Under the pieces are notes generated by a model, which did no database searches, was not told the origin of the DNA, and saw only the letters and a program-made list of their open reading frames with translations. A program made the position numbers and the translations under genes. From Prochlorococcus sp. AG-409-L21 (lineage in GTDB: Bacteria > Cyanobacteriota > Cyanobacteriia > PCC-6307 > Cyanobiaceae), in the NCBI GenBank assembly GCA_003215475.1, contig QCKH01000002.1:1-64000 (forward strand): 64,000 nt of DNA, written 5' to 3'. Below are positions 51,265-52,056 of the stretch, in pieces. Position 1 is the stretch's first letter, and each line of letters starts with the position of its first letter.

Positions 51265-51528
51265 TCAATTTTGATAATTATTATTTTCTTTCCTAAGTGC
51301 TGATTCGAGATCTAAACAATCTAAAGGTAGCCCTCTATAAATAGCAATGAAAAAGGGTGTGAAAATACCTGCAGTAAAAATCAATCTATAAACATCAGAC
51401 TGCCCTGACTTTGCGAGAAAAGTAAATAAATAGACACAAAAGAGATATAAGTGAAAATACAAAAATCTGCTTGGGTTAACCCCCATCCATCTAATTGCTG
51501 ATCCGAGGAAGAATAAAAGTGTTTTCAT
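51265..51528 (-). CDS. Unknown small membrane protein (87 aa)
   Basis: Not recognised. It has two hydrophobic segments (about residues 22-39, FLYFHLYLFCVYLFTFLA, and 47-65, VYRLIFTAGIFTPFFIAIY) and a charged C-terminal tail (LESALRKENNNYQN). It converges on nfu over 13 nt and has a potentially structured 5' leader upstream. Its ATG start and membrane pattern make it a fair candidate, but no family is assigned. Confidence 0.5.
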   Translation of the reverse strand: MKTLLFFLGSAIRWMGVNPSRFLYFHLYLFCVYLFTFLAKSGQSDVYRLIFTAGIFTPFFIAIYRGLPLDCLDLESALRKENNNYQN

Positions 51529-51605: not shown

Positions 51606-51718
51606 CACCTTACTCAAAAGCCAAAGCCAAATGTTTAAAAGATTAACGAAATCTTGATTTTGACTTTCTTTGTATCAATACGAACGTCAAGGAGGAGTCA
51701 AATACCTCAAAATAATAA

Positions 51719-51734
51719 TGTAGCAATAGCTACA
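51719..51734. promoter_or_regulatory. Perfect NtcA-type palindrome (TGTA-N8-TACA)
   Basis: TGTA at 51719-51722 and TACA at 51731-51734 flank exactly 8 nt, matching the NtcA consensus GTA-N8-TAC plus one extra symmetrical base on each side. A TAATAA/TAATGT -10-like sequence at 51713-51721 overlaps the left arm, so binding there would block the promoter rather than activate it. It lies immediately before the candidate riboswitch. This matches how NtcA is known to repress glutamine-synthetase inactivating factor genes in other cyanobacteria. Confidence 0.7.
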
Positions 51735-51737
51735 AAA

Positions 51738-51800
51738 CGTTCACCCTGTTAATCTCAGGGCGCAGTTCCAACCAGGCCATGGAACGGGGACCTGGCGACC
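51738..51800 (+). promoter_or_regulatory. Candidate glutamine-II (downstream-peptide) riboswitch
   Basis: It starts CGTTCACCC, recalled as the 5' signature of the glnA/downstream-peptide glutamine riboswitch family. The first stem is CCCTG (51744-51748) with CAGGG (51756-51760). The second stem is GTTCCA (51765-51770) with TGGAAC (51780-51785). Its loop CCAGG (51772-51776) is exactly complementary to CCTGG (51791-51795), giving a pseudoknot. A short GACC/GGxGTC hairpin (about 51797-51810) could mask the GGAG ribosome site at 51805-51808. The small-protein gene starts 16 nt past the core. The class is known in marine picocyanobacteria upstream of small proteins. Confidence 0.78.
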
Positions 51801-51815
51801 TATCGGAGTCTGCAA

Positions 51816-51983
51816 ATGGCTACACTTACTTACCGCGGAAAAGCCTACATCCAACATAAGGAACCGTCTCAAAAGCAATTCGTTGAATTGACTTATAGGC
51901 GGAATATCTATACAAATAGAAAACAAGAGGTTTCAGCTAATCATCCTCTTTTAACCTACCGTGGTATTTCTTATCAGAAGTGA
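51816..51983 (+). CDS. pirA: DUF4278 small protein, PirA-like regulator candidate
   Basis: A 55-residue basic protein with the DUF4278 hallmark twice: TLTYRGKAYIQ near the start and LLTYRGISYQK at the end, with a central LTYRRNIY repeat. PirA of Synechocystis, a small DUF4278 protein as I recall, binds PII and controls flux into arginine/ornithine synthesis, and glutamine riboswitches precede its homologues in marine picocyanobacteria. Here GGAG precedes ATG by 7 nt, the riboswitch lies upstream and a strong terminator follows 22 nt after the stop, so it is monocistronic. The PII link is inferred from family and context, not shown here. Confidence 0.75.
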   Translation: MATLTYRGKAYIQHKEPSQKQFVELTYRRNIYTNRKQEVSANHPLLTYRGISYQK

Positions 51984-52005: not shown

Positions 52006-52056
52006 AAATATAAAAATAGGAGGCTGTGCTAAACACAGCCTCCTATTTTTATATTT
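52006..52056. terminator. Strong bidirectional intrinsic terminator, 23-bp perfect stem
   Basis: The arms 52006-52028 and 52034-52056 are exact reverse complements with a 5-nt loop (CTAAA). The G+C-rich upper stem (GGAGGCTGTG side) is flanked by an A-run on the left and T-rich TATTTTTATATTT on the right, so it can end transcription in either direction. It isolates the small-protein gene from the gene at 52124. Confidence 0.92.

Follow-up and report, generated by a model that had tools for sequence, protein, structure and literature searches.

A putative NtcA operator at the predicted transcript start of a riboswitch-led gene for a small DUF4278 protein

The riboswitch–DUF4278 locus

The window, by which we mean the whole stretch of 64,000 nt that was analysed, comes from a Prochlorococcus-like marine picocyanobacterium and carries on its plus strand a gene for a small DUF4278 protein, preceded by a Glutamine-II (type 2 glutamine) riboswitch and followed by a probable terminator (Table 1). 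The riboswitch scores above the gathering threshold of its Rfam covariance model, and begins at the base directly after a perfect palindrome. The earlier note had called the gene PirA-like; this is loose, as DUF4278 membership is what is shown for the 55-aa product. The domain has been linked in the literature to the N-terminus of IF17/GifB (PMC6316151), and PirA itself is stated not to occur in marine picocyanobacteria (PMC8092223). Behind the same leader, relatives encode DUF4278 proteins of 33 to 67 aa.

Table 1. Features of the locus, in window coordinates
Feature	Position	Strand	Details
Upstream element TGTATCAATACGAACGTCA, NtcA-like site	51671..51689	+	core GTAN8AAC GTATCAATACGAAC 51672-51685, centre -41.5
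Predicted -10 hexamer CAAAAT	51708..51713	+	-12 to -7; position from promoter alignment
Palindrome TGTAGCAATAGCTACA, proposed NtcA operator	51719..51734	.	core GTAGCAATAGCTAC 51720-51733 = +1 to +14
Predicted transcript start (+1, G)	51720	+	Yfr6 mapped start, ATG at nt 97, -10 profile
Glutamine-II (type 2 glutamine) riboswitch aptamer	51735..51796	+	Rfam RF01704, 70.8 bits (gathering score 33)
GGAG, likely ribosome-binding site	51805..51808	+	read from sequence, 7 nt before ATG
55-aa DUF4278 small protein gene	51816..51983	+	Pfam PF14105, E 1.8e-9
Strong inverted repeat 3' of the gene, probable terminator	52009..52053	.	20-pair stem

Some HL-type genomes (loci L555 and L556) have the layout of the window, in which a divergent small ORF (51265-51528) lies beside the riboswitch-DUF4278 gene; these ORFs begin MKGFLYFLGN... 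or MKTLLFFLGS.... Elsewhere, low-scoring Glutamine-II riboswitches (L049, L050, L051 and L055) precede a gene for a basic protein of 59 aa (MNTLPLIRSQLQRAKRLHKAQL...) that matches no Pfam family; these have GTATCTGTTGCTAC or GTATCCGTTGCTAC upstream, and L055 has two copies, 54 nt apart. Riboswitch matches of identical score within one genome, three in G193 and four in G075, suggest recent duplication of the locus.

Placement of the palindrome and the transcript start

NtcA sites are recognized by a GTA-N8-TAC core, usually as TGTA-N8-TACA, and the window indeed contains the perfect TGTA-N8-TACA that had been proposed as an operator for this regulator. The pattern by itself is not significant: the window has two occurrences of TGTAN8TACA against an expectation of 0.70, and 11 of GTAN8TAC against 6.6. 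Thus, as a pattern the palindrome is weak and could be due to chance; its position, in contrast, is highly significant, because it adjoins the Glutamine-II riboswitch and because the same placement recurs across homologous loci.

The latter was established by searching for RF01704 in 300 genomes of the family, of which 203 were positive, in the genus (14 of 14 positive) and in a chosen set of genomes, and by reading the DNA upstream of 161 DUF4278-type riboswitch loci, which amount to 158 non-identical 110-mers. In 141 of these 158, representing 30 genera, a GTAN8TAC is present no more than 34 nt from the CGTTC of the aptamer, and the site proposed for comparison in other strains is therefore conserved. 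Since the Rfam model begins 3' of the palindrome, the palindrome played no part in the search, and there is no ascertainment effect. A set of 136 loci read earlier gave 127 with an exact GTAN8TAC; the distance from it to CGTTC was 15-24 nt, in most cases 17-21 nt. The consensus is tGTAGCAAnnGCTACa, in which the GTA and TAC columns are fixed by their use as the selection criterion; the inner GC..GC is conserved too.

Of the 17 loci that have no GTAN8TAC at this place, 13 are from one genus, g34 (L019, L025, L084, L098, L248, L258, L262, L263, L267, L268 and L270-L272). In several of these, the palindrome is replaced at the same place by other dyads, for example GTTGAGACTCTCAAC or GCATTCATCTGAATGC, or by GTAG-N5-CTAC; the forms seen where GTAN8TAC is lost include GTCGA-N5-TCGAC, GTTGA-N5-TCAAC, GCATTC-N4-GAATGC and AGTAGA-N5-TCTACT. 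Two short DUF4278 loci, L044 and L155, are likewise devoid of the palindrome; L044 keeps the upstream element and a TATAAT, and its aptamer begins approximately where transcription should start.

The transcript start can be placed by homology. The start of the Yfr6 RNA of strains MED4 and SS120 was mapped by RACE to a G behind a TATA element, with a 33-aa ORF at nt 97 (PMC1242208); the Yfr6 leader is the Downstream-peptide (Glutamine-II) riboswitch (PMC2864571). Counted from G51720, the first G of the palindrome, the ATG in the window is nt 97; in relatives it is at 93-103, mostly 97-101, and in two HL-type loci with 33-aa ORFs it is again at nt 97. Moreover, in the aligned promoters, numbered relative to the palindrome's first G, the best -10 hexamer begins at -12 in 103 of the 141 loci, A-11 and T-7 being near-invariant (97%) in the best-aligned (-48) group. 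We infer the transfer from Yfr6 to the window by homology; as the mapped start, the ATG distance and the -10 profile all agree, transcription very likely begins at G51720. The core of the palindrome would therefore span +1 to +14, with its centre at +7.5. The earlier note was right to put the presumed transcript start on the palindrome, but not in having the palindrome overlap the -10: the conserved hexamer, CAAAAT, ends six bases before the palindrome core, and the TAATAA/TAATGT (51713-51721) that had been taken for it is not at the conserved position.

DNA operator or RNA hairpin, and the candidate protein

A palindrome that is transcribed from +1 may act in either nucleic acid. It could be mainly an RNA element, a 5'-terminal stem-loop (GUAGC-AAUA-GCUAC) that stabilizes the mRNA or supports the riboswitch, and indeed it folds as a separate hairpin; several of the g34 loci where GTAN8TAC is lost also retain a dyad of another sequence at that place. 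Nonetheless, we consider this improbable. At the paired columns, covariation is no greater than expected for independent positions (0.50 against 0.50 for pair -1/14, and 0.86 against 0.85 for pair 4/9), the flanking and inner pairs being the informative ones since GTA and TAC are fixed by selection, and pair 4/9 is a C-A mismatch in 16 of 115 representatives. The selection acting on the palindrome therefore looks like protein recognition.

A second class of riboswitch genes bears on the same question. These class 2 genes encode proteins of 58-60 aa (48-60 aa overall) that start MNTL or MNVL and are partly assigned to DUF4278 by Pfam (L238, L240-L244, L259-L261, L264, L266 and L283; also L273-L282). 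The same palindrome recurs in them, 34-38 nt ahead of CGTTG and upstream of a candidate -10; in 10 of the 12 loci read, its centre is at about -26.5 to -30.5. As judged from this placement, the class 2 copy would not be transcribed and is not an RNA hairpin. Because of this untranscribed copy and the missing covariation in the pairing columns, we regard the palindrome as a putative DNA operator. The g34 replacements may leave room for a residual RNA role or for another factor. Several g34 members of class 2 (e.g. L273-L282) have the riboswitch and no NtcA palindrome.

A scan had also flagged the palindrome as a terminator on the minus strand. This candidate was rejected: the bases just upstream are T-rich on the plus strand across the loci, and a minus-strand hairpin in the relatives would therefore be followed by A, not T. 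Nor is it a plus-strand terminator, as A comes after it.

Several observations identify NtcA as the likely partner of the operator. NtcA of strain MIT9313 binds the glnA oligonucleotide GTACCTGTTGCTAC in vitro, aided by 2-oxoglutarate (PMC5767323). The reverse complement of this site, GTAGCAACAGGTAC, has the half GTAGCAA in common with the palindrome consensus, such that the half-site of the palindrome, TGTAGCAA, is identical to one half of a proven NtcA target of the clade; the MIT9313-type site is also found at glnA of genus g29. Within the genus, glnA sites are mostly GTACTTATTGATAC, with GTACTCTTTGATAC in the genome under study, and elsewhere they are GTTACCGTTGATAC or GTACCTGTTGCTAC. In the promoters of ntcA genes of the genus, no GTAN8TAC was found near the first ATG scanned, these start codons being unrefined. 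When viral sequences were scanned for the palindrome in combination with CGTTC, the matches were too unspecific to be of use.

A CRP-family protein other than NtcA could be envisaged at the palindrome, since the genomes encode at least one NtcA paralog below the NtcA cut-off, and such a paralog (G000:C10:55209-55658) is the only family member seen in the assembly that contains the window. No ntcA above the cut-off was found in this assembly (best match 70.8 bits); it is 70% complete, and the gene is plausibly missing through incompleteness. Against another protein of the family stand the shared half-site, a palindrome consensus that is the textbook one for NtcA, and the finding that NtcA is the member above the cut-off in 28 of the 30 genomes tested (12 of 14 in the genus and all 16 others); on these grounds, we rate the alternative as very improbable.

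Regulatory reading and comparison with known systems

From the sequence comparisons, we consider it likely that NtcA binds the palindrome as an operator, at +1 to +14 of the DUF4278 transcript, and thereby represses the gene when nitrogen is short. Its centre, at +7.5, lies within the footprint of RNA polymerase, over the start rather than at -41.5, and is comparable with NtcA-repressed sites of Synechocystis 6803: those of gifB (-7.5) and gifA (-30.5) (PMC6316151), and that of pirA (ssr0692; -33.5, with a second site at -48.5), a gene repressed under nitrogen limitation (PMC8092223). The repressor geometry that had been claimed thus stands, as does the accompanying statement that NtcA represses gif genes elsewhere. 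NtcA binding, repression and the physiological logic at this locus are what we infer. When nitrogen is short, NtcA loaded with 2-oxoglutarate would bind +1 to +14 and block the polymerase at the transcript start; with ample nitrogen, it would dissociate, permitting transcription from G51720, and the Glutamine-II riboswitch would admit translation of the mRNA only at high glutamine. The gene would then be on only with low 2-oxoglutarate and high glutamine, and nitrogen shortage would probably silence it at two levels, that of the DNA and that of the RNA. The idea of two parallel brakes, NtcA and a glutamine-ON riboswitch, is therefore coherent. The homologous Yfr6 RNA of MED4 falls on nitrogen depletion (PMC1242208), a fall that might be explained by the riboswitch alone or by RNA decay.

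That the palindrome is a chance occurrence, or an activator site for the DUF4278 gene, is scarcely credible, notwithstanding the 0.7 occurrences of the bare pattern expected per window. Chance does not account for a placement conserved in 141 of 158 loci; activation would require a start about 41 nt downstream (about 51768), inside the aptamer, contradicting the mapped start of Yfr6 (PMC1242208).

The note's contention that the locus is built to repress and not to activate holds for the geometry of the +7.5 palindrome, but it overlooked a second NtcA-like site. The position of the latter, -41.5, is that of class II activators and is normally activating. GTAN8[AT]AC is found at -48/-49 from the palindrome and start in 103 of the 141 loci, and almost nowhere else upstream, which centres the element on -41.5/-42.5; its consensus is TGTATCANNNYGAACNNC. 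The left half, GTATCAATA, is the left half of the reverse complement of the genus-common glnA site, GTACTTATTGATAC. A weak TTG-type -35 (-36 to -31) is seen in loci without the element, among them all those of the HL-type genus g17, and is absent where the element is present; the promoters thus seem to fall into two types, each of which has the +7.5 palindrome. The element is not a general regulon motif: among 12 genomes, 12 of the 14 matches to TGTATCNNNNTGAACNNC are at riboswitch or DUF4278 promoters. The genome under study has two further perfect matches to the element, inside long reading frames and not at such promoters.

Dual control by NtcA, with activation from -41.5, repression from +7.5 and an expression peak at intermediate 2-oxoglutarate, would be a refinement of the repressor reading and not a replacement for it. 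Besides the frequency of the element and the distribution of the TTG-type -35, it is favoured by the NtcA-bound glnA site of MED4, which on the reverse strand is GTATCAAAGGTAAC and so also GTAN8AAC (PMC5767323). Conversely, the element has a strictly conserved, asymmetric right half, YGAAC with a further conserved C three bases beyond it, which differs from a half-site that is simply weak; another regulator could bind there; both NtcA sites of Synechocystis pirA are thought to be repressive (PMC8092223); and the HL-type g17 genomes do without the element. Overall, we hold dual control to be possible but on the unlikely side. It is unlikely, too, that two NtcA sites of opposite sense and the glutamine riboswitch together form a band-pass switch, firing at intermediate 2-oxoglutarate and high glutamine.

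Marine picocyanobacteria are said to have a stripped-down nitrogen regulation, and a start-site NtcA operator in 30 genera suggests tight double control of small DUF4278 proteins, by 2-oxoglutarate and by glutamine. The DUF4278 genes with type 2 glutamine riboswitches are thereby suggested to be an NtcA-repressed set, and the locus to be a compact natural two-input gate; a role of the proteins as possible modulators of glutamine synthetase or PII is worth testing.

NtcA repression of such genes has already been published for gifA/gifB and pirA, and an NtcA motif at PMM1846 has already been noted. What appears to be new is the exact +7.5 placement and how widely it occurs, together with the position of the palindrome in class 2 and the element at -41.5, with the proviso that part of this may have been described earlier (PMC6212724). 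Like the present gene, PMM1846 of MED4 encodes a DUF4278 protein behind a type 2 glutamine riboswitch, and a review notes an NtcA consensus motif in its promoter without giving the geometry (PMC6316151). Yfr6 shares the G start after a TATA element, the ORF at nt 97, the Glutamine-II leader and the lower level on nitrogen depletion; it has been presented as an RNA that may be non-coding or dual, and NtcA is not discussed with it in the accessible parts of the two reports (PMC1242208 and PMC2864571). The pirA gene resembles the locus in encoding a small protein and in having two NtcA motifs, whereas no Glutamine-II riboswitch is reported for it and the product of our locus is a DUF4278 protein. 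There are parallels with gifA and gifB as well, which also encode small proteins of nitrogen excess with NtcA sites over the core promoter, and gifB further shares a glutamine riboswitch and a DUF4278 in the N-terminus of its product (PMC6316151); the class 2 palindrome is centred close to the position in gifA (-30.5). In contrast to the gif genes, the site described here is centred on +7.5, starts at +1 and adjoins a type 2 glutamine riboswitch (type 1 in gifB), and most members of its locus class have a second NtcA-like site at -41.5.
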